From NCBI GenBank assembly GCA_019638615.1, contig JAHBTL010000011.1:96359-160358 (forward strand): a stretch of 64,000 bases of DNA. The letters run 5' to 3'. Both the position numbers and the translations under genes were made by a program. This document shows, in pieces, positions 30,557 to 52,477 of the stretch (position 1 is its first letter; every line of letters begins with the position of its first letter). This stretch comes from Chitinophagaceae bacterium (lineage in GTDB: Bacteria > Bacteroidota > Bacteroidia > Chitinophagales > Chitinophagaceae). A model generated the notes under the pieces. That model was not told the origin of the DNA and searched no databases. It saw nothing but the letters and a program-made list of their open reading frames with translations.

Positions 30557-33500
30557 ATGAAGTGCTTGCTTTATCTTGCGCTTACATTATTTGTAAGCCT
30601 GCATTCTTTCGCACAAAGCAACACGGTTAAAGGAGCAGTTACCGATGATAAAGGTAATCCGTTACCCGCCACCAGTGTTGTTGAAAAAGGAACTCCCAAC
30701 GGAACAACAACGGATCAAAACGGGAATTTTACCATCACTGTAAAACCTAATGCCGTATTAGTGATCAGCTCCGTTGGTCATGAAACAACAGAGTTCCAGC
30801 TAAAAGGACAAACCGTTGTAAGCGTTATGCTTGCATCTGCCGGGAAAAGTTTGACAGATGTGGTAGTGGTAGCATATGGTACACAACGACGTACTACCAT
30901 GACCAGTTCCCAATCCTCCATCTCTTCTAAAGATTTTGAAGGGCAGCCTGTAACCCGCATAGACCAGGCGCTGCAGGGCCGTTCCAGTGGTGTGCAGGTG
31001 ACCAACACCTCAGGTGCACCGGGCAGCGATGTAAGAATAAGGATACGCGGCGCCAATTCAATTAACGGGGATAACGGGCCGCTATATGTTATAGATGGTT
31101 TTGTTGGCGGTGATTTTAATATCATCAACCCCGACGATGTTGCTGATATACAGATACTGAAAGATGCTGCAGCTACCGCACCTTATGGAAGCAGGGGTGC
31201 TAACGGCGTTATCATCATCACCACAAAAAAAGGTGTTAAAGGTAAAACCAGTATCAGCTTTAATACCAGGCAGTCGTTATCTGATGTAATAAAAAAATAT
31301 GATAAGCTTACGGCTGCGGAGTATGCCGAGGTGGTAAACCAAAGAAGACAATTGACCGGTACAGACCCGTATTATACTGCCGAACAGATCAATAACTTCA
31401 AAACCAATCCGGTTAAAGACGCACAGGATGAGATTTATCGCCGTGCTGCAGGGCAGCAATACGAGCTGAACCTGAGTGGCGGTACAGATAAAACAACCTA
31501 TTTCATCTCCGGAGGCTACCAGGATCTGCAGGGTGTTATTGTAGGTTCAGGGTATAAGTTTTACAATATAAGGTCCAATATCAATACATCGCTTAGCGAT
31601 AAGTTGTCTGCATATATTAACGTAAATGCTTTTGTCCGCAACAACCGCAATACTTCTTTAAGAGCAGGCACTCAGAATGCTGTTGTTGAATCTGTAGCAT
31701 GGTCGCCTTCTGTTAATGTAATTGATGCGGATGGAAACCCTGTTAAAACCGACCCGCTTGGCGCACAATTTTATAACCCGGTGGCGGAAGCGTTGCACAG
31801 GGAAGGGTTAAACGACAATTATAATGCAAACATAGCCGGCGGCTTTTTGTACAGGATTGTAAATGGTTTAACGTTCAACCTGCAATATGGTGTTAATTAC
31901 TCAAACGGAGAGTACAGGGGTTTCGGTGATAAATACGTGGCCGAAAATGTATATGCCGGAAGGAGTACCGGAACATCGCTCACCTTGCAAAATATCAATA
32001 CCTTAAATTATAAAGCTACTTTTAACGGGGTGCATAACCTTGATCTGACAGGAGTACTTGAACTTCAAAAAGAAAAGTACAGCGGGTTTAATATAGATGT
32101 CAGAAACCTGATCTACCCGGCTTTCAAGTGGGACAATTTAAGGCTTGCTGATCTTACAGGCGCAGGTGCAGGCTATTCAAATGCATCTTTGTTCTCGCTT
32201 TTCGGGCGCGTTAATTATAATTATGATGAACGATACCTGTTAAGCGCTACCATCAGGCGGGATGGCTCATCCCGGTTCAGGGGCGATAACAGGTACAGCT
32301 ATTTCCCTTCTGTTGCTGCAGGCTGGGTGATCAGCAAAGAGAATTTTATGGCTGATCAGGGCCTGTTCAGCCTGTTGAAGCTCACCGCCAGTTGGGGGCT
32401 TACCGGCAACCAGGCTATTGGAGCGTACAGCACCTTGTCTACCTATGCCAGCCTTAACACTACCTTAAGTGCAGACGGATCTGTGCCTGCGATATTAATA
32501 GACCGCGCTGCCAACCCTGATTTGAAATGGGAGACCACGGAGCAAAAAAACCTGGGTTTGGAAATGGGCGTATTGAAAAACAGGTTGAAAGCCCGGTTTG
32601 ATTATTTTACCAAAGACACAAGAGACCTTCTTTTTTGGGTAGGATTGCCTGCATACACCGGCGGTGGCGCTATTATGAGAAATGTGGGCAATGTACAAAA
32701 CAAAGGCTGGGAGCTTGAAATAAGCGGTACACCTGTTGTTACTGAGCATTTCAGTTGGAACAGCTCATTCAACTACTCGGCGGTGAATAATAAAATAAGG
32801 ACATTAGCCGATGGAAAAGCTGAGCAAACATGGGATTCCGATATTGGCTGGGGCGCTACTGTTTATCCGGAGTATTTATTAAAAGTAGGCCAGCCTATGG
32901 GCGCCATGTATGGACTTAATTATTTAGGTACATGGAAACCGAAAGACGAAGCAGAGGCTGCACAATTCAATGAAAAGCCCGGCGATTCGCGTTACCAGGA
33001 TGTGAATGGAGATCATGTAATTGACGCGAATGACCTGACCATTATAGGTTATGGTTTGCCCAAGTATACCATGGGATGGAACAATACCTTTACTTACAAA
33101 GGATTGGAATTAAATATACTGCTGCAGGGTGTTTACGGCTTTGATAAGCTGAACTTTATTTATGCGATGGGAATGACCGCCTATGGCGATTTCAGGCAAC
33201 CTACTTTAGCAGATATTAAAAACAGGTATGTACCGGGCGTTAATGAAACATCAGATATACCTGCATTCAGCACTACCAATAAAAACTATGTGCAATCATC
33301 AAGGTTTATTTCCAAAGGTGATTTTACAAGAATAAAAAATGTTAGTCTCGCGTATACACTTCCCAAAAAGTTAATAAGAAATATTGCTGACATCCGGTTA
33401 TTTGCGAGTGTTACCAATTTATACACTTTCACAAAATACAGTGGTATGGATCCTGAAGCCGCCAATACCGGTTCAGGCAGCGACCCGGCTCAAAGCTTTG

Positions 33501-33559
33501 ATTACGGTGGTTATCCTATTCCAAGAACATTTACCGGAGGTATAACATTAACTTTTTAA
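30557..33559 (+). CDS. SusC/RagA-type TonB-linked outer-membrane receptor of a predicted apiosyl-glycan locus
   Basis: A signal peptide (MKCLLYLALTLFVSLHSFAQ) is followed by a carboxypeptidase-D regulatory-like domain (NTVKGAVTDDKGNPLPATSV, residues about 22-95). The plug has LYVIDGFVGGDFNIINPDDV and GANGVIIITTKKG (about 115-220), and the barrel ends IPRTFTGGITLTF. It has no STN domain, unlike the receptor at 17281, so its control is not of the FecR type. A SusD gene follows after 18 bases and a GH140-like enzyme after that. It probably imports oligosaccharides released from apiose-containing glycans (inference from neighbours). Confidence 0.93.
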   Translation: MKCLLYLALTLFVSLHSFAQSNTVKGAVTDDKGNPLPATSVVEKGTPNGTTTDQNGNFTITVKPNAVLVISSVGHETTEFQLKGQTVVSVMLASAGKSLTDVVVVAYGTQRRTTMTSSQSSISSKDFEGQPVTRIDQALQGRSSGVQVTNTSGAPGSDVRIRIRGANSINGDNGPLYVIDGFVGGDFNIINPDDVADIQILKDAAATAPYGSRGANGVIIITTKKGVKGKTSISFNTRQSLSDVIKKYDKLTAAEYAEVVNQRRQLTGTDPYYTAEQINNFKTNPVKDAQDEIYRRAAGQQYELNLSGGTDKTTYFISGGYQDLQGVIVGSGYKFYNIRSNINTSLSDKLSAYINVNAFVRNNRNTSLRAGTQNAVVESVAWSPSVNVIDADGNPVKTDPLGAQFYNPVAEALHREGLNDNYNANIAGGFLYRIVNGLTFNLQYGVNYSNGEYRGFGDKYVAENVYAGRSTGTSLTLQNINTLNYKATFNGVHNLDLTGVLELQKEKYSGFNIDVRNLIYPAFKWDNLRLADLTGAGAGYSNASLFSLFGRVNYNYDERYLLSATIRRDGSSRFRGDNRYSYFPSVAAGWVISKENFMADQGLFSLLKLTASWGLTGNQAIGAYSTLSTYASLNTTLSADGSVPAILIDRAANPDLKWETTEQKNLGLEMGVLKNRLKARFDYFTKDTRDLLFWVGLPAYTGGGAIMRNVGNVQNKGWELEISGTPVVTEHFSWNSSFNYSAVNNKIRTLADGKAEQTWDSDIGWGATVYPEYLLKVGQPMGAMYGLNYLGTWKPKDEAEAAQFNEKPGDSRYQDVNGDHVIDANDLTIIGYGLPKYTMGWNNTFTYKGLELNILLQGVYGFDKLNFIYAMGMTAYGDFRQPTLADIKNRYVPGVNETSDIPAFSTTNKNYVQSSRFISKGDFTRIKNVSLAYTLPKKLIRNIADIRLFASVTNLYTFTKYSGMDPEAANTGSGSDPAQSFDYGGYPIPRTFTGGITLTF

Positions 33560-33577
33560 CACACAAACTTTATAACA

Positions 33578-35029
33578 ATGAAAGCTATATATAGTATTAT
33601 GCTGATAGCAACGGTGGCGGGCTCATTTGGCTGTAAAAAATTCCTGGATGAAGATCCGAGAGGCTTGCTTTCCGGCGATGCAGCTATTGCAGATGAAGAC
33701 GGACTTAATGCTCAGTTATCCGGAGCATACAGTACACTGATAGGAAGCTGGGACCAGGGCTTTGCTACTGCCGCTGCCATAGCTTCTACCATGGGCGGCG
33801 ATGATGTTACCACACATCCCGAATCGAACAAAGCAGATTTCAGGGAATTTGATCAGTTCAATGTAACTTCCTTTAATGCAAGGTCTGTTGCTCTATGGAA
33901 CGGGTGTTATAAAACCATCCAGTCATCGAACAACATTATCAATAACTATGCTACAACTGCGGGCAATGAGGATAATATAAAACAGATCGTGGGTGAGGCT
34001 TATTTTTTAAGAGCCTTCTCCTATTATTACCTGGTAAGGTTTTGGGGTAAGATACCCATTATTACAACAGAGGTATATTCTCCTGATCTTTTAACAGTTG
34101 CCAGGAATGAAATTACCGATGTATATAAGCTGATTGAAGAAGACCTGAATAAGGCGAAGGATATGATAGGCAATACCAAATTATCCAGCGGCAGGATCAA
34201 CAAGGGAACAGTGTTAGCATATCTTGCCGATGTATGCCTTACACAAACCGGATGGCCCGTAAAGAACAGCGCTAAAGCCGCTGAGGCAGCAGGGTATGCT
34301 AAACAGGTTATGGATAATAAAGCAACCTACGGATTCGATTTATATCAGGGCGGCTTCTTAAAAATGTTCGCAGGCGGCACTCCCGAGGAAGTTTTTGCTT
34401 TGCAAACAGACGGAAATGTTACAGAGAACTTATTCTACGGGCAATCCGGGCAGCCGGTTGATATTGACGGATGGAATGACTTTCAGTCAGAGATCAATTT
34501 CTTTATTGATTTTCCTGCAGGCGAGAGAAAAGACGCCACCTTTCTTACTTCGGTTGAAAAAAACGGGCAAACCATTCAATGGCAAAACTTTGAGCTAAAG
34601 CATCCCTATTACAAGAAGTTCTGGATACAGGATGGCAATGCTTATACCTATCACTCCAAAAACCCTATTATTTTAATGCGTTATGCAGAAGTGCTTTTGA
34701 TTTATGCGGAAGCGCAGGCAAGAAGTGCTAACCCTGATGCGAGTGCCTATAATGCCATTAATGCCGTAAGGCAAAGAGCAGGCTTGGGGAATTTAACCGC
34801 AGGACTTAACAGTGACGATTTTATAAAAGCCGTTATACAGGAAAGGGCATGGGAATTTGCTGCGGAATGGCACCGTTGGTTTGATATTGTAAGAGCGGAA
34901 ATTGTTCAGGAAGCCAATGCAAATCGTCATGCAAACGAAATTTCTTTGATTGGAAATCCCGGTGATCAGTCTAAATGGTTGTTGCCGATACCTGCGGGAG
35001 ATGCAAGCATCAATCCTAATCTTAAATAA
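33578..35029 (+). CDS. SusD/RagB-type glycan-binding surface lipoprotein
   Basis: The signal peptide leads to GSFGC with cysteine 19 as lipid site, followed by KKFLDEDPRGLLSGDAAIADEDGLNAQL, the usual SusD opening. TPR-type helices (ARSVALWNGCYKTIQSSNNIINNY; VGEAYFLRAFSYYYLVRFWGKIPI) and a C-terminal RagB/SusD part (ILMRYAEVLLIYAEAQARSAN; AVIQERAWEFAAEWHRWFDIVR) complete the fold. It binds the glycan over its SusC partner at the cell surface. Length (483) is normal. Confidence 0.95.
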   Translation: MKAIYSIMLIATVAGSFGCKKFLDEDPRGLLSGDAAIADEDGLNAQLSGAYSTLIGSWDQGFATAAAIASTMGGDDVTTHPESNKADFREFDQFNVTSFNARSVALWNGCYKTIQSSNNIINNYATTAGNEDNIKQIVGEAYFLRAFSYYYLVRFWGKIPIITTEVYSPDLLTVARNEITDVYKLIEEDLNKAKDMIGNTKLSSGRINKGTVLAYLADVCLTQTGWPVKNSAKAAEAAGYAKQVMDNKATYGFDLYQGGFLKMFAGGTPEEVFALQTDGNVTENLFYGQSGQPVDIDGWNDFQSEINFFIDFPAGERKDATFLTSVEKNGQTIQWQNFELKHPYYKKFWIQDGNAYTYHSKNPIILMRYAEVLLIYAEAQARSANPDASAYNAINAVRQRAGLGNLTAGLNSDDFIKAVIQERAWEFAAEWHRWFDIVRAEIVQEANANRHANEISLIGNPGDQSKWLLPIPAGDASINPNLK

Positions 35030-35360: not shown

Positions 35361-36764
35361 ATGAAGAGATATTTACTGATAGCATTCGCTTTAATGTATT
35401 GCGTTAATAGCAATGCACAACAAAACAGGGGATTGCTTAAGGTTACCTCCAATGGTCATTACCTGCAATATGAAGATGACACTCCCTTCTTCTGGCTGGG
35501 CGATACCGGCTGGGAGTTGTTTCACCGCCTTACTTTGGAAGAAATTACACAATACCTCGACAACCGAAAAAGCAAAGGCTTTAATGTAATACAGGCAGTT
35601 ATTCTTGCAGAGTTAGATGGCATGCATACGCCCAACAGGTACGGCGACTATCCGCTGACTGATAACAACCCCGATCAGCCCAATGAAAAATATTTCAGGC
35701 TTGTAGATACGGTGGTAGCTATGGCGGCTGAAAAAGGAATTGTAATGGCTTTGCTGCCTGCCTGGGGCGATAAGGTAACGCTCAAATACGGTGGTAAAGG
35801 CCCTGTAATTTTTAACCCTGAGAATGCATACCGGTATGGAAAGTTTTTAGGAGCGCGTTATAAGCACGCTGATAATATTGTATGGATACTTGGCGGAGAC
35901 CGCCCGCCGCAGGATGATAAAGACGACTGGAAGCCGGTATATGCCGCTGTGGCCAAAGGCATTGATGAAGGCTCCGGAAAACATTTCCTTAAAACTTTTC
36001 ACCCCGGCGGTTATGTATGGGAAAGCTCTGTTTACCTGCACAATGAGCCCTGGATGGATTTTAATATGATCCAGTCGGGACATGCTGAGCTGGACCAGCC
36101 GGTATGGAAAAATATTTTGAAAGACTGGAACCTTAAGCCAACTAAGCCCACCCTTGATGGCGAGCCCTGCTACGAAGATCATCCGATCAATCCATGGCCC
36201 ACCTGGAATCCTGCCAATGGGTATTTCAGGGATTATGAAGTAAGAAAGCAGTTGTACCGTTCCGTATTTTCCGGCGGGTTCGGTGTTACCTATGGTCATC
36301 ATTCCGTATGGCAATTTTACAATTCTTCTGTCGAAAAGCTGAATTATGCCGACATGTACTGGTATGATGCTATTGACAGGCCGGCTGCTTTCCAGGCTGG
36401 TTATTTAAGAAAGCTGATTGAATCAAGACCGTACCTGAACAGGATACCTGATACATCGCTGGTAATAAGCGGACAGGGCAACACTAATGCATCACATATT
36501 GAGGCTTTCCGCGATGCGGATGGCAGCTATGCCATGATCTATTTACCCATAGGAAAACAGATTGAGATCAATACGGCATTGATAAAAGCAAAACGAATAA
36601 AAGCCTGGTGGTTCAACCCCGGCACAGGAAAAGTAGAAAAAACCATCTCTTTTAAAGCAACGGCAACACATTGGGTTACATCGCCTTCATTGGGCGCTAA
36701 AAATGATTGGGTGCTGGTATTGGATGATCTGTCAAAACAATATGGAGCGCCAGGTGCAAAATAA
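35361..36764 (+). CDS. GH140-type apiosidase (DUF4038 family), secreted
   Basis: After a signal peptide ([20 protein letters not shown]) comes the DUF4038 TIM-barrel. It starts [35 protein letters not shown] and continues with [41 protein letters not shown] and [12 protein letters not shown]. Candidate catalytic acids are the Asp of GGDRP and the Glu of DGEP. A C-terminal all-beta domain (collagen-binding-2-like, ending in WVLVLDDL) follows. GH140 enzymes cleave apiosyl links, as in rhamnogalacturonan II side chains. The neighbouring D-apiose operon supports this reading. I chose the ATG at 35361; 35349 is an in-frame ATG four codons earlier. Confidence 0.85.
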
Positions 36765-36795: not shown

Positions 36796-38256
36796 ATGCT
36801 CAAATCACATGTAAATATTTTATTACTCCTCGCTGTTTTTTATTCAGGCGCACTTTATTCGCAAAACGTGATCAGGCTGCATCCTGATAATCGCCATTAC
36901 CTGCTGTATCAGAACAAGCCCATTATCCTCATCACGGCTGCGGAGCATTATGGCGCGTTGGTTAATACCGAATTTGATTATGTTGCTTACCTCAATGCTC
37001 TCCAAAAACGGGGAATGAATTATACCCGTATTTTTTCCGGCGCCTACATAGAGGGAGAAAAAGATATTCAATGGATGCGCTATAACAATACGCTTGCTCC
37101 GAAGCCCAGCAAACTGATCGCTCCCTGGAAACGCAGTAACGTGCCTGGTTATGCTAATGGCGACAATAAATTTGACCTGGACCAATGGAATGAAGATTAT
37201 TTCGAAAGGATAAAAGATATTTTAAAGCAGGCCGCAGAGAGAAGCATTATTGTGGAATTTACCCTGTTTGGCAACCAGTACAGCGACAGCGTATATGCCT
37301 GGTCACCGCTATACCCGGATAATAATATCCGGCAGGTGGGCATCAAAAGAAAAAACGGTTTCCTGGATTTTCAGTCTTTAAAAGACCCGGTGCTGGTAGC
37401 CCGGCAGGAAGCGATGGTCGTTAAGATAGTGAAAGAACTAAATGATTTTGATAACCTGTATTATGAAATATCCAATGAGCCTTATAACGAGGTGAAAGAC
37501 CCTTTGCCGGTAGACCAGTGGCATGTGCATATCGCAAACCTTATTCGGGAAACGGAAAAAGAGCTGCCCAAACAACACCTAATTGCTTCTAACCAGGCCA
37601 TCTTCAGTAACCCATTGGTTGATATTGCGAATTATCATTACGTGCATATACCCGACCTGCCTCGTTTTGATTCACTGCTGCTTCTCAATAAAGTGATCGG
37701 TATGGATGAAACCATGGGTACGCTGAAGGATGTGGACGCAAATGATGCGCGTGTGGAGGCCTGGGATTTTATTTTACACGGAGGAGGCATTTACAATAAC
37801 CTGAGCTGGGAATATACACCGGAAAAGCCTGCAGGCTTAGCCGGGACAGATACTGTACATCAGTATTTCAGCTACCTGCAAAAATTCATCAGCGGCTTTG
37901 ACTATACAAAAATGAACTATTCTCCGGAGCTGCTGATCAAAACACCTGGTAAAGCTATTACCCGTTTACTGGCTGAACCGGGCAGGCAGTATGCGCTGTA
38001 TATCCATCACAGCACACCCGATATTGCTGAACCGCCACGTGGAACGGCCGTTTGGAAATATGAAGCAGATACTACCATGTTCAGCGATACAATAACATTG
38101 CATTTTAAAGCCGGCAGATATGAAGCCAGGTGGTATGATCCTTCAACCGGAGACTGGATAGGAAAACCCGTGAGATGGAAACAAAAAGATGGAAACCATA
38201 CCTTCTTTACACCATCTTTCACAACTGATATCGCGCTTAGAATAACAGGCAAATAA
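36796..38256 (+). CDS. Secreted glycoside hydrolase of clan GH-A type, family unassigned
   Basis: The signal peptide (MLKSHVNILLLLAVFYSGALYSQ) argues for the ATG at 36796, 31 bases after the GH140 stop; an upstream ATG at 36703 would overlap that gene. The barrel shows VIRLHPDNRHYLLYQNKPIILITAAEHYGA, GMNYTRIFSGAY and NLYYEISNEPYNE. The NEP after strand 4 is the acid/base signature of GH-A enzymes, and VIGMDETMG may hold the nucleophile Glu. A C-terminal beta domain (YALYIHHSTPD..) follows. I do not recognise the exact family. Its place directly behind a GH140 enzyme suggests it acts on the same glycan. Confidence 0.7.
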   Translation: MLKSHVNILLLLAVFYSGALYSQNVIRLHPDNRHYLLYQNKPIILITAAEHYGALVNTEFDYVAYLNALQKRGMNYTRIFSGAYIEGEKDIQWMRYNNTLAPKPSKLIAPWKRSNVPGYANGDNKFDLDQWNEDYFERIKDILKQAAERSIIVEFTLFGNQYSDSVYAWSPLYPDNNIRQVGIKRKNGFLDFQSLKDPVLVARQEAMVVKIVKELNDFDNLYYEISNEPYNEVKDPLPVDQWHVHIANLIRETEKELPKQHLIASNQAIFSNPLVDIANYHYVHIPDLPRFDSLLLLNKVIGMDETMGTLKDVDANDARVEAWDFILHGGGIYNNLSWEYTPEKPAGLAGTDTVHQYFSYLQKFISGFDYTKMNYSPELLIKTPGKAITRLLAEPGRQYALYIHHSTPDIAEPPRGTAVWKYEADTTMFSDTITLHFKAGRYEARWYDPSTGDWIGKPVRWKQKDGNHTFFTPSFTTDIALRITGK

Positions 38257-39346: not shown

Positions 39347-40186
39347 ATGCGCGTTTTTTCAGAAAAAAATTTTGATAAGCTTTCCGAAGCATATGATATC
39401 CTTTTCAAGAGAAATATAGAAGCGTTTGCAGAAGCGCAAAAGCAATCTAAAACAAATCGTGCTGAAAAAAATTATACGGTTTTTTATCCTTCCTTTGGTG
39501 TTAAAAAAAAGGATTGCAAGTTTTTAGTTTACGGGCAGGCAGTCAAAGGGTGGAAACTCAATTTCAATGCTTTCGCTGAACTCAACCGGAATGGATTTTC
39601 TCAAAAACTGCTTGAAGAAAGTATTGAATATTCTAACGCATATCATGCATCTCAAAATCACAATCCACTTGACCGGATTAATATATACTGGTCAAATGCC
39701 AGCTATAATAATTTCGTAAAAACGGAAAAAGACAGGCAATTCTACGAACCTTCTGATTTCAGGGTGCACAGATCCTTCTTCTGGAACGTGATTTACAAAT
39801 TGATATGTGAACATTACGATCTGGATAAAAACTCATTCCATTGGAGCAGCAAACCGGTGTGGTCGAATTTATACAAAATTGCTCCTTCTGAAAGAGAAAA
39901 CCCTTCTCCGCAGGAAAAAGAACTTCAGCAAAAGATTTCACTTGAACTGGTAAGAAAAGAACTTGATGAGATACAGCCGGTGTATTGTATTGTGTTGACC
40001 AATCGTAGCTGGTGGCTCCCGTTTCAGAAAGATCTCAAAACAGAAAATATACCCTTTGTTAAAAACAGTGTCATTGAATCTGTAGAGAAATATGGAAGGA
40101 CAACTATTATAGTGACTTCAAGGCCATTCGCGGGCAATAGTGCCGACCATGCCGGCAAAATTTCGGAAGTCCTGGAAGCTGTTTAA
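39347..40186 (+). CDS. Uncharacterised protein, possibly related to the uracil-DNA glycosylase superfamily
   Basis: This 279-residue soluble protein has no signal peptide. KFLVYGQAVKGW after a predicted strand resembles the motif 1 region of UDG-like folds. VWSNLYKIAP, then LVRKELDEIQPVYCIVLTN and TIIVTSRPFAGNSADHAGKI recall the order of strands and the late loop of that superfamily. No canonical catalytic Asp or HPSP motif can be named, so this is a weak structural guess. It stands divergent from the DnaB-C-like ATPase. The two may form a functional pair, as both have nucleic-acid-linked folds and share AT-rich composition. Confidence 0.5.
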   Translation: MRVFSEKNFDKLSEAYDILFKRNIEAFAEAQKQSKTNRAEKNYTVFYPSFGVKKKDCKFLVYGQAVKGWKLNFNAFAELNRNGFSQKLLEESIEYSNAYHASQNHNPLDRINIYWSNASYNNFVKTEKDRQFYEPSDFRVHRSFFWNVIYKLICEHYDLDKNSFHWSSKPVWSNLYKIAPSERENPSPQEKELQQKISLELVRKELDEIQPVYCIVLTNRSWWLPFQKDLKTENIPFVKNSVIESVEKYGRTTIIVTSRPFAGNSADHAGKISEVLEAV

Positions 40187-40274: not shown

Positions 40275-41906
40275 TTATAAACTGAGCTGAAACTTCAGCT
40301 CTTTACCAGCCTCGTTGTTGAATATGATTTGCGTACCGGAAGCTCCGACACTTTTCGTCATGGTTGCTGCTCTGAATGATTGTAACTGCGCCAACACGCG
40401 ATATAAAGGAGAATTTTCACCTGCTGTCCCTGCAATGCCGCTATCTCCTGTTGTTTTGAAGAAGGTTACCTGCTGCACATCGCGCAACTGAAAAAGGCAC
40501 AGCAGGAACCAGCCTGCGCCAAACCATGTATTTTGCCTGGCATCGAAATTATTTACGAGCGCATGTCTTGCACTCCCTGCACCATCGTGATTTTTCCTTT
40601 TCTTAAACGTAACCGGTGAAACAAAAACGGGCTTATCAGTAAAAGACCGGATGGTTTGGATAATGTCAGGAATGGTTTCGATATTCTCCAGTATGGTCTT
40701 CTCATCAAAGCTGTGCACCTGGGGGTTCAGGCTGAAGCTGATAAAGTCAAATTCATCATGCTGCGGTCTTTGCCGGTTCAATTCCGTAAAATAGATATCG
40801 GTACCATAGCCGACCATTATGGAGGGAAATGATCTTTTCAATAAAGGATAAAAATATTCCTGCAAGAAGGGTGGAGTTACTTTATAGCCTTTGTGTTGCG
40901 GTAATATAGATTTGATATCATACTTTCCACGAGAGATTGTTGATATAAATTCTTTGATCTCCTCCCTGTAATTATCCGTGAAAAACAGCACCAGCTCCAG
41001 CGCTGCGCCGATCGCTTTTGCATTGGGGCAGTGGATGTTGAACAGGGATTGCCAGTCTTTTTCAAAGTCCAGCTCAGCCCGGTAATGCATCAACGAAAGC
41101 GCCTGCAGCGCTTCTATTTCCCCGGCGGTTAGCAACGCTGGTTCATCCGCTGCCGAAATTCCTATAGCGGAAACTATACTTGTTTCAATATCCGGTATCT
41201 CTACTGCAGTTTCAGTCTCGTTTTCCTTAATATCAACGCTCAGGCGTACGCTTTGCTGCAGGGCTTCGCCAACGTTCACCTCAAAAGGAAAGGGAAGCGC
41301 CAGCAGGCGACTGTATATTTTATAGGAATGATCCATCCAGTTACGCTGGTCTTCCGCTTCAAATGCATCCCCCGAAAAGTGGAGCTGTACAGCAGTATTG
41401 TTTTCTGTTGTCCAATGCAATTGTTCTATCTCGCTCAAAGGCTGATTAGGGCTGATGTTTTCAGGGAAACAGGTGATTGTACTTTCTCCTGAAGGATGGG
41501 TGACAGTTACAGGTATACCTGTACATTCCTTTACCGGAAGATGTACACACAACCCGATACGGCAGGCTTTGAAACGGGTTAACGCTTTTCCGTTTATTTG
41601 AAATGCAATAGTGTCATCGGGGCCTCCTTCAATACGACATGCTGCTTCATATACAATATCATCCTGCCGGTAATGTGCAGTATAAGTAATGGTAAAGCTG
41701 TCTTCGTCATGCCGGATATGTTCATCAGTAATAGTAAAAGCTACCGTTCCCCAGTTTATATCCCGCACCGCGCCATAGATCATGCGAACGATCTCCGTAT
41801 TGCCGGCTTTGATATATCGCAGGCTGCCTTCTTCATACCGGCAGGTAAGATTTTTAGTGTAAAGTGCTACAGAAGCGGGCAGATCTATATCGAAAGGAAT
41901 ATGCAT
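40275..41906 (-). CDS. apnL: Predicted D-apionate lactonase, ApnL-like
   Basis: ApnL opens D-apionolactone to D-apionate in D-apiose catabolism. This 543-residue cytoplasmic protein has an N-terminal beta-sandwich-like part (VRMIYGAVRDINWGTVAF) and a middle TIM-barrel with YGTDIYFTELNRQRPQHDEFDFISFSLNPQVHSFDE and PVFVSPVTFKKR. Near the C-terminus are DARQNTWFGAGWFLLCLFQL and VTFFKTTGDSGI. These phrases fit what I recall of ApnL; it is somewhat shorter than other members. It is the last gene of a seven-gene operon that also encodes ApsD-, ApnO- and OiaC-like enzymes. That context makes the call much stronger than the sequence alone. It starts 11 bases after the binding-protein gene. Confidence 0.75.
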   Translation of the reverse strand: MHIPFDIDLPASVALYTKNLTCRYEEGSLRYIKAGNTEIVRMIYGAVRDINWGTVAFTITDEHIRHDEDSFTITYTAHYRQDDIVYEAACRIEGGPDDTIAFQINGKALTRFKACRIGLCVHLPVKECTGIPVTVTHPSGESTITCFPENISPNQPLSEIEQLHWTTENNTAVQLHFSGDAFEAEDQRNWMDHSYKIYSRLLALPFPFEVNVGEALQQSVRLSVDIKENETETAVEIPDIETSIVSAIGISAADEPALLTAGEIEALQALSLMHYRAELDFEKDWQSLFNIHCPNAKAIGAALELVLFFTDNYREEIKEFISTISRGKYDIKSILPQHKGYKVTPPFLQEYFYPLLKRSFPSIMVGYGTDIYFTELNRQRPQHDEFDFISFSLNPQVHSFDEKTILENIETIPDIIQTIRSFTDKPVFVSPVTFKKRKNHDGAGSARHALVNNFDARQNTWFGAGWFLLCLFQLRDVQQVTFFKTTGDSGIAGTAGENSPLYRVLAQLQSFRAATMTKSVGASGTQIIFNNEAGKELKFQLSL

Positions 41907-41917
41907 GATACCTGCAA

Positions 41918-42931
41918 TTATTGCATAAACTGGTCTACATTATTTTTATCAATTTCTATAGATCCTGTGATCACGGTTTGCGGGATTGGAACTACACCGG
42001 CACTGGCATCATCTGCAGATAAGGGCATTGTTTTATGCCGCATGTCAAACAAAAATTGTGCGCCAAGCCAGGTGAATAATTCTCTTTTTTGCCCAACCAG
42101 GTAATCTATTACTCCTTCTTTTACCAGCGCCAGGTGCTCGGGTTCGGCATCTACCGTAGTGATTCTGATCTTCCCTGCTTTGCCGGCTTCTTTTACGGAA
42201 AGCGCTATACCCGGCCCGGAGTTGGAATCAAATCCTCCTATGCCTGCCAGGTCAGGGTTGGCCGTTAGTAAATCAGCAGTAATCCTCGCAGCCGTTTCCA
42301 CATTCGCTTTATCATCGTACTTACCAATAAACTCAATGCCGGGAAATTTTTTCAGTGCATCCTGGAACCCATTAAAGCCGGCTTCCATATTTTCCATGCC
42401 CAATATACCCATACAGGCAACCTTTCCATTTCCTCCAATGATCTTTGCCATGCGCTCGCCCTGCAGCCTGCCCATTTCATACCAGTCGCTGCCGATAAAA
42501 CAATGCCTGTCTGAGTTAGGTATATCCGAATCATATACTACGGTTGGGATGCCGGCATCTGTTGCTTTTTTGATCACCTGCGCTATACCGGGATCTGTGC
42601 CATTGATGAGCAACCCTGCCGGCTTACCGGGTATTACCTGCTCAATAGTTGCGATTTGCGTAGGCACATCCCATTCAGAGGGACCAAGGATGGATACCTT
42701 TACGGCTGTTTTTTTGCCCCATGCTAAAAAAGCTTTTTGGTCATGATTTACGTACAAGGGTAAATTAACGGCAGTGGTTACCATCACATATTCTTCATCA
42801 GGCGATACTTCGTCTGCTGTAATAAATTTTTTCTCTCCCTTTGTGGTGCCTGCGGTGCTGCTGCCGGAACGTGGAGGCAGCTCACAGGAGAAGAGAAACA
42901 ATACCAGTATGTACACTATGCCTTTATACAT
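41918..42931 (-). CDS. ABC sugar importer, periplasmic binding lipoprotein (RbsB-like), predicted D-apiose-specific
   Basis: A signal peptide ends in FLFSC, with cysteine 16 the likely lipid anchor to the inner membrane. The type 1 periplasmic binding fold of the ribose/galactose group is visible in LLINGTDPGIAQVIKKATDAGIPTVVYDSD, HCFIGSDWYEMGRLQGERMAKII and IRITTVDAEPEHLALVKEGVIDYLVGQ. The gene lies between permease and lactonase, 6 bases after the permease stop. Specificity for D-apiose is inferred from the operon. The lipid anchor is unlike the free proteins of Proteobacteria. Confidence 0.9.
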   Translation of the reverse strand: MYKGIVYILVLFLFSCELPPRSGSSTAGTTKGEKKFITADEVSPDEEYVMVTTAVNLPLYVNHDQKAFLAWGKKTAVKVSILGPSEWDVPTQIATIEQVIPGKPAGLLINGTDPGIAQVIKKATDAGIPTVVYDSDIPNSDRHCFIGSDWYEMGRLQGERMAKIIGGNGKVACMGILGMENMEAGFNGFQDALKKFPGIEFIGKYDDKANVETAARITADLLTANPDLAGIGGFDSNSGPGIALSVKEAGKAGKIRITTVDAEPEHLALVKEGVIDYLVGQKRELFTWLGAQFLFDMRHKTMPLSADDASAGVVPIPQTVITGSIEIDKNNVDQFMQ

Positions 42932-42937
42932 GAGTTG

Positions 42938-43885
42938 TTATTTTTCCATTTTTTTCAGAATGAGCTGATCTATGCCAACAGCTATGATAAGTATTGCGCC
43001 GAGTATTACTTCCTGCCAGTATCCCGACACGCGGCTCAGAATAAGTAAATTATTAATAAGCGCCATAAATAAAGCGCCCAAAAAAGAACCCCATATTTTC
43101 CCATAGCCGCCGGAAAGACTTGCGCCGCCCAATATAACAGCAGTGATCACCCGCATTTCCAAACCTCTGCCTGATGTTGATAGTGCAGCACCTAATCTCG
43201 ATGATAGCAAAATACCCGCTACGCCGGCAAGGGTTGCTGAAATAACAAATGCCCATACTTTCATTTTTTCCACGTTGATACCTGATAGCCTCGCTGCTTT
43301 TTCGCTACCACCAATAAAATAGTATCGCCGGAAAAAAGACGTGTTTTTGGTGAGATAAGCAAACACTATCACCACCAGCAGCATATACCAGACCGGCATT
43401 TGCAGTCCAAATAATTTCGACTGGCCAATAACAGTATACTCATAAGGAAAGTTCTGTATGCCCGCGCCGCTCAGCATTAATGCAAAGCCACGTACTATGC
43501 CCATCATGGCCAATGTTTGTATCATGGGGTTAATGCCAACCCGGGCAATAAGCCAGCCATTAATAAACCCTATCAGCACAGAGCCCGCAACACCGGCCAT
43601 GATAGCCGGCACAAAATTTACGTGATGGTAATACATTAAATACCCCGCCATACCACCTGCAAAAGCCACAACAGAGCCTACGGAAAGATCAAACATGCCG
43701 GCGATCATCAGCACCATCATTCCAACAGCCACAATCGTATCAATGGAAAGATTGAGCATCAACTGGGAGAAATTATCAATGGTGGGGAACTTATTTGGGA
43801 ATACGATTGCCATTACAATGCAAAGCAGCAGTATACTACCGCCCAATGTAAATACCCGGTCTGTGAACCTGTCTTTCAGTTTCAT
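42938..43885 (-). CDS. ABC sugar importer, permease (RbsC-like)
   Basis: The protein has 315 residues and eight to ten hydrophobic helices. It has the family phrases MFDLSVGSVVAFAGGMAGYL, GFINGWLIARVGINPMIQTLAMMGIVRGFAL and VITAVILGGASLSGGYGKIWGSFLGALFM. These place it in the ribose/xylose/AI-2 branch (PF02653). It forms the membrane channel of the importer encoded by its neighbours and starts 13 bases after the ATPase stop. Confidence 0.94.
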   Translation of the reverse strand: MKLKDRFTDRVFTLGGSILLLCIVMAIVFPNKFPTIDNFSQLMLNLSIDTIVAVGMMVLMIAGMFDLSVGSVVAFAGGMAGYLMYYHHVNFVPAIMAGVAGSVLIGFINGWLIARVGINPMIQTLAMMGIVRGFALMLSGAGIQNFPYEYTVIGQSKLFGLQMPVWYMLLVVIVFAYLTKNTSFFRRYYFIGGSEKAARLSGINVEKMKVWAFVISATLAGVAGILLSSRLGAALSTSGRGLEMRVITAVILGGASLSGGYGKIWGSFLGALFMALINNLLILSRVSGYWQEVILGAILIIAVGIDQLILKKMEK

Positions 43886-43898
43886 TATAGCAAGTTTG

Positions 43899-45359
43899 TT
43901 ACAGGATGCCTGATGCCAGCGCTGCCAGCTTTTCTTCCGTTGCTTCCTGTTTGGCTAATATTTTTACCAGTTTGCCCTGGTACATCACGGCAATCCTGTC
44001 AGCCAGCAATAAGAGCTCAGGCAATTCACTTGATATCATGATGATGCCCTTGCCCTTTGCTGTCAGGTTTTTCAGAATATGATAAATTTCTGCTTTAGCT
44101 CCCATATCTACACCATGCGTAGGTTCATTTACCACCAATAACTCAGGATCAGCAGACAACCATTTGGCTAAAACTGTTTTTTGCTGGTTGCCTCCGCTCA
44201 GCTTACGTACATGTATAGCTGAAGCCGGTGTACGAATCGAAAGCTGCCTGATATACCCGTCTGCAAGCCGCTCATTTTCTTTCTTATTATATACAGTGGT
44301 ATCCAGGTGAACGGCAGCTATATTTTCTGTAATTGATTTTTCCAAAAACAATCCTTCGGCTTTTCTGTCATCGGGCAGGTATGCAACATGCGATGCAATC
44401 GCATCAGCAGGATGCCCTGGTCTAAACGGTTTGCCGTTCATAAACATTTTCCCTGAATCATATTTCGCATCTCCAAATATGGCTTTGGCAAGCGCCGTAC
44501 GCCCGGAGCCGGTTAGCCCGGCAAAGCCGAGCACTTCTCCCTTATGCACCCGGAAGGAAACATTACTGAACCCTTTTCCGGAAATGTCTTCAGCACTAAA
44601 CAATACATTACCCGTTGTGTTGGAGCTGAAAACAGATGCAGTCAGCGCTCTTCCTACCATCATCTTTACAATAGTGTCAACCGGTGTATCGGCAGCAACC
44701 GTTCCCTGCAGCACACCGTCTTTTAAAACAGATACGATATCAGCAATAGTGGCTATTTCTGCCATGCGGTGAGAAATATAGATGATGACTACATTAGCCT
44801 GTTTGAGTTTTTTTATTATAGAAAACAGCACTTCAGTTTCATCATGTGTAAGTGACGCGGTAGGCTCATCCAGTATTAAAACAGCAGGCTTTTTTGCAAG
44901 CGCCTTCGCTATTTCAATCATATTTTTTTGTGCTGCCGATAATTTCCCCACTACAGTATTGGGCGCAAGATGAGAGAGCTGCAATTCCTCCAGCAATGCT
45001 GTTGTGTTTGCATATAAAGCTTTGTAATTAATCAACCCGAAAGATGTTTTAGGCTGATTGACCGGAAATATATTTTCAGCTACTGTTAATGCATCAACAA
45101 GACTGCGCTCCTGGTAAACGATCGCAATACCTGAGTTTTCTGCCTGTAATACATTTTCAATAATTACCGGTTGTTCCTTCAGCACTATTGTACCCGAATC
45201 CGGTTGCAGGTTACCGGAAATGATATGCATCAATGTTGACTTACCAGCGCCGTTTTCACCGCACAATGCATGTACTTCACCCTGCCGGAATTTGAGCGTT
45301 ACGTTTTCCAACGCTTTTACGCCGGGAAAAGATCTTGATATGTTGTTTAGACACAGCAT
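43899..45359 (-). CDS. ABC sugar importer, double-domain ATPase (RbsA/MglA-like)
   Basis: Two nucleotide-binding domains are fused. The first has Walker A GENGAGKST, signature-like KLSAAQKNMIEIA and Walker B VLILDEPTASL. The second has the degenerate Walker A GLTGSGRTALA, signature LSGGNQQKTVLAKWL and LLVVNEPTHGVDMGAK, typical of ribose-type importers. I chose the ATG at 45359 (MLCLNNISRSFPGVKAL); it shares one base with the stop of the dehydrogenase gene (TAATG). A reading to 45407 would add 16 unrelated residues. Confidence 0.95.
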   Translation of the reverse strand: MLCLNNISRSFPGVKALENVTLKFRQGEVHALCGENGAGKSTLMHIISGNLQPDSGTIVLKEQPVIIENVLQAENSGIAIVYQERSLVDALTVAENIFPVNQPKTSFGLINYKALYANTTALLEELQLSHLAPNTVVGKLSAAQKNMIEIAKALAKKPAVLILDEPTASLTHDETEVLFSIIKKLKQANVVIIYISHRMAEIATIADIVSVLKDGVLQGTVAADTPVDTIVKMMVGRALTASVFSSNTTGNVLFSAEDISGKGFSNVSFRVHKGEVLGFAGLTGSGRTALAKAIFGDAKYDSGKMFMNGKPFRPGHPADAIASHVAYLPDDRKAEGLFLEKSITENIAAVHLDTTVYNKKENERLADGYIRQLSIRTPASAIHVRKLSGGNQQKTVLAKWLSADPELLVVNEPTHGVDMGAKAEIYHILKNLTAKGKGIIMISSELPELLLLADRIAVMYQGKLVKILAKQEATEEKLAALASGIL

Positions 45360-46369
45360 TAAAAATGAATGGCTTTTCCGGCAGCGGCAGATGCATAAGA
45401 TGCCCATACCAGCTCTACCGTTTTAAAATTATCTTCTCCTGTGGTTTCTGCATCACCGCCTTCCAGTCCCTGCAAAATATTACGGTTGCAATCCACAATG
45501 CTGGAATGCACCACCGCGTATGCAGGATCAAGCCAGTTGTACATGACCGGGTGAATGGTTGTTGATGTTGTTTCTTTCCTGGTGATAATTTTTAATTCAA
45601 AATCATTGGTCAGATGCAATGAGCCTTTTTCTCCTTCTATAAAAACAAGCGTTTGGGGAAAAGCTTCTTTTTCCATAATGGAAGCGTAAGACATCTCGGC
45701 GTAGCAATGCAGCCCGCTTTGCATTTCCATCAGCACATTGGCAACGTCTTCACCTTTTATACCCGGATTCACGCGTTGCGTAATACAAAATAAATTTCTT
45801 GCTTCACCAAACAAAAACCTGCATATATCCAACACGTGCGAGCCGATATCGGTAAGTATAAAATGATCAAGCTCCTTTAAAAAAGGCTGGTTATCGAATA
45901 CCAGGAAAGCTGAGCAAAAAGTTACCCTTGCCTTGAATGCCCTGCCGATAATGCCTGAATCAAGCGTCTGCTTAAGTTGACGCACAGGCAATTGCCATCT
46001 GAAATTTTCGTGGATAAATAAACGCACATGATTGGCTTTGCAAACCGCAAGCATCTCTTTTGCCAACTGTTGAGATGGCGCCATCGGTTTTTGGCAGATC
46101 ACGTTGATGTTTCTTTCTGCAGCAAGTTTTGTAAAATGGACGTGTGTATTCACATCGGTAATGATATCGACAAAATCCGGTTGTTCCTTTTCAAGTAACG
46201 CTTCCACATCATCGTAAATATTACTGATCCCGAATTTTTCCCCGATTGCTTTCGCCCTGCCAAAAGTCCGGTTATACAAGCCCGTTATTTCAACCCCCGG
46301 CAGCTCCTGCCAGGCAGGTATTTGAAAATTCGACCAAAAACCAGTGCCGATAATAACACCTTTCAGCAT
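45359..46369 (-). CDS. apsD: Predicted D-apiose dehydrogenase, ApsD-like (Gfo/Idh/MocA family)
   Basis: This enzyme would oxidise D-apiose to D-apionolactone with NAD. The N-terminal Rossmann fold starts MLKGVIIGTGFWSNFQIPAW. The catalytic EKP-type motif reads ICQKPMAPS, followed by FIHENFRWQLPVRQL, FILTDIGSHVLDICRFLFGE, QRVNPGIKGEDVANVLM and EAFPQTLVFIEGEKGSL. CQKP, HENFRWQ and GEDVA are phrases I associate with ApsD rather than with inositol dehydrogenases. Start ATG 46369 lies 27 bases after the ApnO-like gene; 46393 would add eight residues. Other sugar dehydrogenase functions in this family remain possible. Confidence 0.8.
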   Translation of the reverse strand: MLKGVIIGTGFWSNFQIPAWQELPGVEITGLYNRTFGRAKAIGEKFGISNIYDDVEALLEKEQPDFVDIITDVNTHVHFTKLAAERNINVICQKPMAPSQQLAKEMLAVCKANHVRLFIHENFRWQLPVRQLKQTLDSGIIGRAFKARVTFCSAFLVFDNQPFLKELDHFILTDIGSHVLDICRFLFGEARNLFCITQRVNPGIKGEDVANVLMEMQSGLHCYAEMSYASIMEKEAFPQTLVFIEGEKGSLHLTNDFELKIITRKETTSTTIHPVMYNWLDPAYAVVHSSIVDCNRNILQGLEGGDAETTGEDNFKTVELVWASYASAAAGKAIHF

Positions 46370-46396
46370 AACAATCGTTTCTGCAGTGTACAAATA

Positions 46397-47227
46397 CTAT
46401 TTCACTATATCCTTTACCTGTTGCTTTATATCTTCCATCTCAAATATCTTCTTCCAGTCGTCTTTAAACAAAATAGGTTTTGCCCTTTTGCTTATTTTAT
46501 ATGCGGCATCTGAAAAAGTCCCGTTCACCTCTTTAAATAATACCGCTATCTGGATGCGTAAATGCCCTAGAACAAAATCTCTTGCGGCAGTTTCAGGCAC
46601 ACCCAGCTCAATGATCCGGTCATATCCCTCCTTTATTACTTCCATCGCTGTTTGCGACAGTGTCTCCACCATTGCCGGCTCCAGTATCGCCATCTGCTCC
46701 AGTGTAATGCGGTGTGTATTCTTTATCGGGGCGTACATGTCCTGCGATATTTTTTCGCCTAATTTATAATAATCTTCGTTGCCATGCATTAACGCTACCA
46801 CTATAGATTGTTTGGCCGAAATGCCACCGTAAAAATCTCTGAAAGCTTCTTCCGTGGGTTCCCAGTTAAAAATACCGGGGTGACATGGGTGAGCGATTAC
46901 ATAGCCGAGATCATCCCTGTGATAAATAATACCATCCAGCGGTGCGGCAGGATCGAGTGTGATTACTAAAGCGCCGGGCTTCATTTGCGGAATAATTTCG
47001 GCGGAAATAGCACCAATCGTAATATCGGGCACACCAAGAATGACCACATCTGCCGTTGGTACAGCCTCTTTTTGTGTACTGATGGTGATATTTTTTTGTT
47101 GCAAACGTTCAATGCCCTGCTTATTTATCTCAAGGTATCGTACATCGTACTGAGGATTTTTCAAAAAATTATCAGTCAAACGAAGCCCCATTTTACCGCC
47201 GGCGCCTACTAAGGTAATTTTGATCAT
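46397..47227 (-). CDS. apnO: Predicted D-apionate oxidoisomerase, ApnO-like
   Basis: ApnO converts D-apionate to 3-oxo-isoapionate with NAD. The protein has an N-terminal Rossmann motif (ITLVGAGGKMGLRLTDNF), a strand-loop ADVVILGVPDITIGAIS, then the phosphogluconate-dehydrogenase-like part: YVIAHPCHPGIF, KQSIVVALMHGNEDYYKLGE, TLEQMAILEPAMVETL and FVLGHLRIQIAVLFKEV. The HPCHPGIF element and the all-helical end match the ApnO group as I recall it. Its ATG overlaps the OiaC stop by four bases (ATGA), so the two are translationally coupled. Confidence 0.78.
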   Translation of the reverse strand: MIKITLVGAGGKMGLRLTDNFLKNPQYDVRYLEINKQGIERLQQKNITISTQKEAVPTADVVILGVPDITIGAISAEIIPQMKPGALVITLDPAAPLDGIIYHRDDLGYVIAHPCHPGIFNWEPTEEAFRDFYGGISAKQSIVVALMHGNEDYYKLGEKISQDMYAPIKNTHRITLEQMAILEPAMVETLSQTAMEVIKEGYDRIIELGVPETAARDFVLGHLRIQIAVLFKEVNGTFSDAAYKISKRAKPILFKDDWKKIFEMEDIKQQVKDIVK

Positions 47228-48033
47228 TGTGTATAGTTATTAAGATATTTAATGCTTTTATTTATCCAGTCCATTTCTTTTGCTAAGGTTTGTTCGTCCG
47301 TGCTTTCCCGGTTCATCCATGTTTCAAGAGTGACCGTAGCACAGCGTTTGTATTTACTGCATTCAGACATCAGCCAGCCTATGTCCAGCATCCCTTCTCC
47401 GGCAGGCGCTCCTGAAACAGTAAATCCCATTTTATGATTTACACGCGCAATAGTAAAATCTTTCACATGCAGATTAACAGTATAGGGTAATAAAACCGGT
47501 GCTATTTCAGCTATGCCTTCACCCGCGCCAAGAGAATTGGCGGTGTCCAGGCAGATAGCTACCAGTTCAGGATCGGTTGCCTCTATGATACGAACAAGCG
47601 TTTTAGCTTTCAACCTGTCATGGTTTTCAATTGCCAATGTAATACACGACTGCTTTAATACAGGCAGAAGTTCTTTTATTATACGAATTACTTCTTCAAC
47701 AGGAGGATGATAATTTCCATCATCAATTACTACGCGCAAAAATTCAGATTCCAGCTTTTGTGCAATGCTTATATAACTACAGATATTTTCAAAAAAGAGC
47801 CCGCGTGTGCCAACCTGCAAATGAATATTTTTTTGCTTTGCAAGCCTGCCTAAATCATCCAATGCGGTACCGGTAAGCAGGTGAAGCGGATAATTATCGC
47901 CAAACTGAAAATATTTAATTTTATTAGCATAAGCAAACTGCAGCATATCAGCAAAAGAAAACCCCTCAGGGGCTGCTTTTGTTAATGTTTCAACATGGTA
48001 TGGAAAGGTGTAAGTGCTCAGTCCCAAATGCAT
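47224..48033 (-). CDS. oiaC: Predicted 3-oxo-isoapionate decarboxylase, OiaC-like (xylose-isomerase-type TIM barrel)
   Basis: OiaC decarboxylates 3-oxo-isoapionate to L-erythrulose. The protein opens MHLGLSTYTFPYHVET and carries YFQFGDNYPLHLL, IHLQVGTRGLFFENI, LAIENHDRLKAKTLVRIIEA, AICLDTANSLGAGEGI, VNLHVKDFTIARVNHKMGF and SGAPAGEGMLDIGWL. The Glu, Asp, His and Glu at barrel-strand ends fit a divalent-metal site. The motif set, with D-N-x-P-L-H and V-G-T-R-G, matches OiaC as I remember it, though many sugar isomerase/epimerase relatives share the fold. It is the first gene of the operon, facing the AraC-type regulator. Confidence 0.78.
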   Translation of the reverse strand: MHLGLSTYTFPYHVETLTKAAPEGFSFADMLQFAYANKIKYFQFGDNYPLHLLTGTALDDLGRLAKQKNIHLQVGTRGLFFENICSYISIAQKLESEFLRVVIDDGNYHPPVEEVIRIIKELLPVLKQSCITLAIENHDRLKAKTLVRIIEATDPELVAICLDTANSLGAGEGIAEIAPVLLPYTVNLHVKDFTIARVNHKMGFTVSGAPAGEGMLDIGWLMSECSKYKRCATVTLETWMNRESTDEQTLAKEMDWINKSIKYLNNYTQ

Positions 48034-48163: not shown

Positions 48164-49036
48164 ATGTCTATACCAACCTACCGGCTCATTAATCCGCAGG
48201 CAAACCGTTGTTATGTATTCAAGCGGGAGCCTTTTGGTTTAACGACTCCCTGGCATTATCATCCGGAACTGGAATTGATTTATTTTGTGAAAGGGAAAAC
48301 CACCGGCGTAATAGGTGAAGGATTTGTGGAGTTTAATGAAGGAGAACTCGTTCTGCTTGGAGCGAATTTTCCGCATGTGCTGCAGGAACACACACAGTAT
48401 AAAAGAGAACATCCTGAAACCAGGCCTTTCGGGCTGATCATTCAATTCACAGAATCATTCTTAGGAGAGCATTTTTTCGATATTCCGGAGCTTTTGCCAT
48501 TAAAGCAGCTTTTTAACAAAGCCAGGCGTGGCATTATTTTTTCAAAGAAAACCACTCACAAAGTGGCATCTACACTGTCAATCATGCATAAAATGAACGA
48601 CACCCGGAAACTGCTTTCACTTCTTGAGGTGCTGTATACATTAAGCGAACAGAAAAGCTACGACTATCTCATCCCTAAAAACTATTCTTATGATCATACA
48701 TTTGATGAGGAACGGATGCTGAACATAAACGAATACGTTTACAAACATTTTAAGGAGCCGATCTCTATTTCAGAAATAGCGCAGGTGGCCAATATGACAA
48801 AAACTTCTTTTTGCCGCTATTTCAAAAACCGAACACTCAAAACTTTTGTACATTTTCTAAATGAGGTAAGAATTTCTTATGCCAGTAAATTACTGAACAA
48901 TGATAATTATTCCATAACAGATGCCTGCTTTGAGTCAGGCTTTAACAGCCTTTCCTACTTTAACCGGCAGTTCAAGGCAATTATGAAGATGTCGCCACTT
49001 CAATACAAAAAATGGAAAAGCTTTGCGACGGCTTAG
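48164..49036 (+). CDS. AraC-family transcriptional regulator with cupin sensor domain
   Basis: An N-terminal cupin (FGLTTPWHYHPELELIYFVKG, GEGFVEFNEGELVLLGANFPHVLQ) would sense a sugar or its product. The C-terminal AraC-type double helix-turn-helix reads ISISEIAQVANMTKTSFCRYFKNRT and YSITDACFESGFNSLSYFNRQFKAIMKMSPLQYKKW. The 290-residue length is normal. The gene is divergent from the apiose operon and upstream of the hexuronate genes, so either or both may be targets; the divergent layout favours the first. Confidence 0.92.
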   Translation: MSIPTYRLINPQANRCYVFKREPFGLTTPWHYHPELELIYFVKGKTTGVIGEGFVEFNEGELVLLGANFPHVLQEHTQYKREHPETRPFGLIIQFTESFLGEHFFDIPELLPLKQLFNKARRGIIFSKKTTHKVASTLSIMHKMNDTRKLLSLLEVLYTLSEQKSYDYLIPKNYSYDHTFDEERMLNINEYVYKHFKEPISISEIAQVANMTKTSFCRYFKNRTLKTFVHFLNEVRISYASKLLNNDNYSITDACFESGFNSLSYFNRQFKAIMKMSPLQYKKWKSFATA

Positions 49037-49106
49037 TAAAACAGACAGGGTAAATATAGCTGTGTTCCCCTGAATTACTTATATTCGGCATTCAGTTGAA
49101 TTGTTT

Positions 49107-50114: not shown

Positions 50115-50255
50115 GGAAGCGGTAGGAGGTTTAGAGGCAAAAAGTGTTACAAGTTGCAGATTGCAGGTATTTAAATTAAAAACCTGTTTAGAAATAGTAA
50201 GCCAGCCTGAAACCCGTAACCGCCCATTTCAAATCTCAAATTTCAAATACCCAAC
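50115..50255. repeat. Degenerate word repeat between kdgK and the KDPG aldolase gene
   Basis: The gap shows TTACAAGTTGCAGATTGCAG, CCTGAAACCCGTAACC and TTTCAAATCTCAAATTTCAA, the same vocabulary as at 3716 and 15506. Notably it lies between two genes of one pathway, probably inside one transcript. Confidence 0.6.
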
Positions 50256-50921: not shown

Positions 50922-50955
50922 TTATTTCTTTAAACCATCTCCTTTAAAAGGCTAT

Positions 50956-52353: not shown

Positions 52354-52477
52354 GGCGAAGGGTGAAAGGAAGAGGGTGAGCATATTGGCTTGCCGCTTTT
52401 GTATACAGTTTATCTTTTCACAGAAACGTGATTAATGCCGGCAACACAAATAGTATAAACGATCGTAAAACCATATC

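Follow-up and report, generated by a model that had tools for sequence, protein, structure and literature searches.

A 64,000-nucleotide window from the genome of a Chitinophagaceae bacterium (phylum Bacteroidota; GenBank assembly GCA_019638615.1, contig JAHBTL010000011.1, positions 96,359 to 160,358) very probably carries, as judged from its sequence, an operon for the catabolism of D-apiose that is fed by a nearby locus encoding a glycoside hydrolase family 140 (GH140) apiosidase. In plants, apiose bears the borate cross-link of the pectin rhamnogalacturonan II and is also a constituent of apiogalacturonan in aquatic species, and Bacteroidota are better known for using it by a different route. 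The steps proposed here are those of the oxidative D-apiose and D-apionate pathways of Proteobacteria, reportedly described by Carter and colleagues in Nature Chemical Biology in 2018. D-apiose would be freed from plant cell-wall pectin through a SusCD locus that includes a GH140 apiosidase, and an ATP-binding cassette (ABC) importer would take it up; ApsD would then convert it, with NAD+, to D-apionolactone, ApnL would open the lactone to D-apionate, ApnO would oxidise and rearrange this to 3-oxo-isoapionate, and OiaC would decarboxylate the latter to L-erythrulose, probably under the control of a divergently transcribed AraC-family protein. That the operon runs from D-apiose to L-erythrulose had been proposed in an initial annotation of this DNA, and protein families, gene order and the GH140 association lend the proposal support at the level of sequence. 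The operon occupies positions 40275-48033 of the minus strand and comprises, in transcription order:

47224..48033, minus strand: OiaC-like protein, a xylose-isomerase-like TIM barrel and candidate 3-oxo-isoapionate decarboxylase (PF01261, E 2.7e-16)
46397..47227, minus strand: ApnO-like D-apionate oxidoisomerase (PF16896, E 3.4e-66; PDB 5t57, E 7.5e-80)
45359..46369, minus strand: ApsD-like dehydrogenase of the Gfo/Idh/MocA family (PF01408 and PF22725; PDB 5uhw, E 7.8e-77)
43899..45359, minus strand: sugar ABC importer ATPase with two ABC domains (PF00005, two stretches)
42938..43885, minus strand: sugar ABC importer permease (PF02653, E 2.3e-42)
41918..42931, minus strand: sugar-binding lipoprotein of the importer (PF13407, E 2.5e-54; lipobox-like LFSC)
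40275..41906, minus strand: ApnL-like D-apionate lactonase (NCBIfam NF049900, E 2.6e-80)

All seven open reading frames end at the positions listed. The OiaC-like and ApnO-like genes overlap in an ATGA read in the sequence at 47224-47227, the dehydrogenase and ATPase genes share one base within a TAATG at 45357-45361, and the remaining intergenic gaps are, in transcription order, 27, 13, 6 and 11 bases, with the dehydrogenase and ATPase read from ATG starts; starts one codon upstream (46372 and 45362) give 24 and -4 for the two junctions concerned. Both the reading frame ends and the sequence therefore agree with the layout first described, of seven minus-strand genes joined by ATGA or TAATG overlaps or separated by gaps of 6-27 bases.

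Related loci were collected with a three-protein ApnL profile run on a genome collection, the best 80 of at least 537 confirmed stretches being kept, many of which lie on short contigs. The nearest relatives of the operon are found in Chitinophagaceae and Spirosomataceae. The Telluribacter humicola locus (L020) reads AraC, OiaC, ApnO, GH140, Gfo/Idh, ATPase, permease, binding lipoprotein and ApnL, while that of a Ferruginibacter (L019) reads GH140, Gfo/Idh, ATPase, permease, binding lipoprotein and ApnL, after which come OiaX, OiaK and ApnO. A Rhizobium brockwellii plasmid (L003) carries OiaX, a four-carbon acid sugar kinase, an ApnO-type gene, an ABC importer, Gfo/Idh, ApnL and DhaK/DhaL. Several of the families involved are individually broad, which would favour a chance grouping of unrelated sugar genes; the set is nevertheless shared with other genomes, Telluribacter keeping its order with the GH140 gene as the sole insertion and many other ApnL loci having it rearranged, so that chance, which the initial annotation had already considered improbable, can be rejected on conserved gene order with next to no probability left to it. 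ApnL genes themselves are sparse. In the genome samples, each including the window's own genome, they were carried by 3 of 395 from the phylum, 4 of 394 from the family (where one match is a fragment of 26.8 bits) and 1 of 12 from the genus, a patchiness that suggests transfer or repeated loss.

The putative ApsD, ApnL and ApnO match the families expected of them far above the other named families or solved proteins found. The dehydrogenase scores 200 bits higher against 5uhw than against the next solved protein (E 8.7e-16), and its predicted model (mean predicted local distance difference test score, pLDDT, 94.6) superimposes on 5uhw with a TM-score of 0.96. The title of that entry is an Agrobacterium radiobacter oxidoreductase with NAD+ and magnesium, and we take the 5uhw series to be the characterised D-apiose dehydrogenase, ApsD. 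On a tree of Gfo/Idh proteins, the window protein joins the ApnL-linked members of several phyla and that of the Rhizobium plasmid (support 99/99, the Rhizobium row carrying a long-branch warning) in a group that stands apart from five other Gfo/Idh proteins; the ApsD-like call of the initial annotation is in keeping with this tree. Similarly, the ApnO-like protein possesses both NAD-binding and PGDH_C (PF16896) domains, and its best PDB match, 5t57, is presumably the ApnO of Cupriavidus. It is 48% identical to the product of a Cupriavidus necator N-1 plasmid gene that adjoins OiaX- and OiaK-like genes, and 45% identical to its counterpart in the Rhizobium OiaX operon; the ApnO tree takes in both alongside the window protein, and domain, structure match and tree concur with the earlier ApnO-like assignment. 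The lactonase aligns with positions 16-565 of the 595 of NF049900, the D-apionate lactonase model, a nearly full-length match that supports the ApnL-like call, though its score lies below NCBI's cut-off.

The putative source of the sugar lies on the opposite strand:

30557..33559, plus strand: SusC-like TonB-dependent receptor (PF00593, PF07715, PF13715)
33578..35029, plus strand: SusD-like lipoprotein (PF07980, PF14322)
35361..36764, plus strand: GH140 apiosidase (PF13204, E 1.7e-116; PDB 8t9w, 'Apiosidase', E 1.7e-117)
36796..38256, plus strand: glycoside-hydrolase-like protein with no assigned family (no Pfam match over cut-off)

The end of the GH140 gene is 3.5 kb from that of the operon, and the hydrolase-like gene and two others lie between them. 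Since the genome contains seven matches to PF13204, this proximity is weak evidence if taken alone. However, 20 of the 80 loci collected with ApnL, other phyla included, have a homologue of the GH140 protein, against 1.0 expected; 15 are at least 40% identical to the window protein, and the other five are 23-27% identical. The loci were counted by BLAST with the window protein, and the base rate by the Pfam model, from 76 PF13204 matches in approximately 100.8 Mb of 15 genomes, each of which has an ApnL locus. The presence of GH140 near the operon points independently to D-apiose as the substrate. GH140 loci for rhamnogalacturonan II likewise hold SusC, SusD and GH140 together; here, by contrast, there are one GH140 and one hydrolase-like gene, with no larger rhamnogalacturonan II set among the annotated genes of the window. 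The hydrolase-like product, whose best Pfam scores are below cut-off (Cellulase, E 0.005; Apiosidase, E 0.025) and for which the PDB search gave no relevant match, has homologues of 34-35% identity in two ApnL loci (L026 and L074), making it a candidate for a new glycoside hydrolase linked to apiose. The two other intervening genes encode a 262-residue DnaB_C-like ATPase (38347-39135, minus strand) and a 279-residue protein with no Pfam match (39347-40186, plus strand).

The importer ATPase has arabinose, xylose and ribose ATPases as its best NCBIfam relatives, all under cut-off, the permease is closest to arabinose, xylose and ribose importers and the binding protein to rhizopine and rhamnose binding proteins, in both cases far under cut-off. 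The binding protein has its lipobox-like LFSC close to the N-terminus in the sequence, and is 80% and 79% identical to its counterparts in L015 and L020, respectively. As the sugar specificity of neither this protein nor the Gfo/Idh enzyme can be read from sequence, the true substrate of the operon might be some other branched sugar or sugar acid, such as a different aldose or D-apionate from outside the cell. Such a function is nonetheless improbable, given that a GH140 apiosidase gene lies near this operon and that 15 to 20 of the 80 related loci have one too, that the lactonase and oxidoisomerase belong to the ApnL and ApnO families, and that the dehydrogenase is closest to 5uhw. D-apiose accordingly remains the favoured substrate, and regulation of the operon would probably fall to the gene facing it:

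48164..49036, plus strand: divergent AraC-family regulator, the probable regulator of the operon (PF12833)

Homologues of this protein are found in four of the 80 ApnL loci, namely L020 (62% identity), L036, L087 and L075, and in some loci of Bacteroidales type AraC gives way to a GntR-type regulator. Likewise, a sugar-permease-like gene (PF07168/PF06800) recurs in 13 of the 80 loci, several of them of Bacteroidales type, and those designated L037, L042, L047, L053, L057, L060, L074 and L081 have it without an ABC importer; its product is a candidate D-apiose permease. Such replacement of the importer and AraC suggests that the D-apiose pathway is modular, with exchangeable uptake.

The assignment of the decarboxylase is inferred from context: in operons of otherwise similar make-up it stands in for OiaK and OiaX. 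Among the 29 loci with both ApnL and ApnO, 15 have OiaC only and eight have OiaX and/or OiaK only, with three holding both types and three neither (Fisher p 0.005, computed with the relatedness of the loci ignored; the OiaC count includes L082, where the best match is the Paracoccus protein). A review (PMC6302742, citing Carter et al. 2018) describes the RuBisCO-like proteins of the pathway as acting on 3-oxo-isoapionate-4-phosphate. The window operon contains no OiaX or OiaK homologue, and an OiaX branch elsewhere was ruled out because the genome has no match to the RuBisCO-like family (PF00016). Four residues of the OiaC-like protein, E136, D163, H189 and E237, are kept in all 20 aligned OiaC-type proteins of the operons and in a relative, 27.5% identical, from Erwinia sp. 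E602; we take these to be the usual metal site of the fold, which fits a decarboxylase without singling one out. The Erwinia gene lies between a triose-phosphate isomerase (TPI)-family gene and an ApnO-type gene, and a dihydroxyacetone-kinase-family gene adjoins the OiaC-ApnO pair.

Phylogenies suggest that ApnO and its decarboxylation enzyme or enzymes have been swapped as a cassette. On the Gfo/Idh tree the window pairs with L019 (98/90), while L020 is the closest to it in identity (69%) and in path; on the ApnO tree it groups with the OiaC loci L033, L020 and L087 (100/100), with L019 placed elsewhere. Identities follow the same pattern: L019 matches the window at 67% for Gfo/Idh and 73-74% for the binding protein and permease, but at 49% for ApnO, whereas L033 matches it at 63-65% for Gfo/Idh, binding protein and permease, and at 80% for ApnO. 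In approximately unbiased tests on pairs picked after the trees had been seen, a constraint uniting the window with L019 was rejected for ApnO (p 1.2e-13), as was one uniting it with L033 for Gfo/Idh (p 0.009). A single change of decarboxylation type is needed on the Bacteroidota ApnO tree (12 OiaC and six OiaX rows, loci with both or neither type omitted), and none of 500 shuffles gave as few, which suggests that the genes move together; over all phyla the label needs four changes on the ApnO tree, a figure given with no shuffle comparison. The Gfo/Idh tree (11 OiaC and three OiaX rows) requires three changes, the maximum, and carries no signal (shuffle mean 2.9). A swap of this kind lends support to a functional equivalence between OiaC and the pair of OiaK and OiaX.

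A number of observations weigh against D-apiose catabolism by this route. The OiaC-like protein has only the generic TIM-barrel match to PF01261 (E 2.7e-16), with no match to a specific family, and among the 50 solved folds listed as closest to its AlphaFold model (mean pLDDT 93.7) isomerases and epimerases predominate, at identities of at most 18%. Both branches are present in the three loci of 29 noted above, and 51 of the 80 ApnL loci lack ApnO in the stretch taken, many of these being on short contigs. The lactonase reaches 270.7 bits against NCBI's cut-off of 750 bits for NF049900, a value that no genome among the 395 sampled from the phylum attains. Its identity to the ApnL proteins of other Bacteroidota loci is just 32-42%, where ApnO, the binding protein and the permease reach 77-80%; ApnL in the window evolves unusually fast or was replaced. 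The identity of 5uhw and 5t57 as characterised D-apiose enzymes is a presumption. Lastly, the genome has no match to Dak1, the DhaK-type kinase, and a single triose-phosphate isomerase gene, as does each of the 15 genomes searched.

The TIM-barrel protein might instead be an isomerase or epimerase, 3-oxo-isoapionate then leaving by a step not yet described. The solved folds nearest to it, the lack of an NCBIfam OiaC match, metal-site residues that, being presumably common to the fold, do not tell the reaction, and the absence from the genome of a DhaK-type consumer of L-erythrulose would all be compatible with this. It is rendered unlikely by the tendency of the gene to alternate with those for decarboxylation, OiaX and OiaK, by the association of its type with ApnO lineage, and by the position of the Erwinia relative between TPI-family and ApnO-type genes and beside a dihydroxyacetone-kinase-family gene. 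The candidate decarboxylase is retained as a putative OiaC: searches of Pfam, NCBIfam and the PDB agree with the family calls of the initial annotation for the other proteins, while that of OiaC drew support from its alternation with OiaK and OiaX but found no specific family match.

In Proteobacteria, L-erythrulose passes onward through a DhaK-type kinase and a TPI-type isomerase, and genes of both types are present in the Erwinia sp. E602 locus. Dak1 was found neither in the window's genome nor in 14 others with ApnL loci, which were reached through those loci and include several metagenome-assembled genomes. Because all 15 lack a DhaK-type kinase and have one triose-phosphate isomerase gene, the Proteobacterial exit to central metabolism was not found, the search having covered DhaK-type and TPI-family genes and, for other kinase and isomerase families, less than the whole genome. 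Among recurrent or nearby operon genes, scanned in representatives only, there were transporters, regulators, dehydrogenases and others, with no recurrent sugar kinase beyond OiaK. A xylulokinase-like FGGY kinase under the NCBI cut-off, encoded 10 kb away (58015-59499, plus strand), is a remote lead for a sugar kinase. It is conceivable, if somewhat short of an even prospect, that Bacteroidota have a mosaic oxidative route, in which an ApnO-OiaC or ApnO-OiaK/OiaX cassette stands beside a constant importer, dehydrogenase and lactonase part, and L-erythrulose or L-erythrulose 1-phosphate exits by an enzyme new to the pathway, the searches for a DhaK-type kinase and for a second TPI-family gene having both come up empty.

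Beyond the AraC gene the neighbourhood continues with a further set on the plus strand:

49101-53890, plus strand: PfkB sugar kinase, 2-keto-3-deoxy-6-phosphogluconate (KDPG) aldolase, UxaC and major facilitator superfamily (MFS) transporter

This is probably a hexuronate set, for instance for the galacturonate of pectin, and fits pectin use.

The operon shares with the oxidative pathways of Proteobacteria enzymes of the ApsD, ApnL, ApnO and OiaC types and a sugar ABC importer, and differs from them in its Bacteroidota host, its proximity to GH140 and SusCD genes, its AraC regulator and the lack of a DhaK-type kinase or second triose-phosphate isomerase. Pectobacterium and gut Bacteroides have a D-apiose isomerase (apsI) pathway, which proceeds through an isomerase, a kinase and a transketolase. 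It likewise feeds on D-apiose, but its families have no member among the seven genes of the operon, to which the comparison was confined. One paper (PMC13001218) mentions both the apsI gene in Pectobacterium and the use of apiose by Bacteroides. A search of the open-licence literature by title and start of abstract returned no paper on an oxidative apiose route in Bacteroidota. The chemistry of the pathway is known, and its form here, with a GH140 link, a probable exchange of cassettes and an exit not found by the route searched, is probably a variant.

The gap after L-erythrulose marks out an enzyme to be sought, and the association with GH140 offers an independent hint at the substrate of ApnL proteins that score poorly against the existing model. 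In this member of the Bacteroidota, the release of apiose by GH140, its import and its oxidation would stand side by side in one locus.

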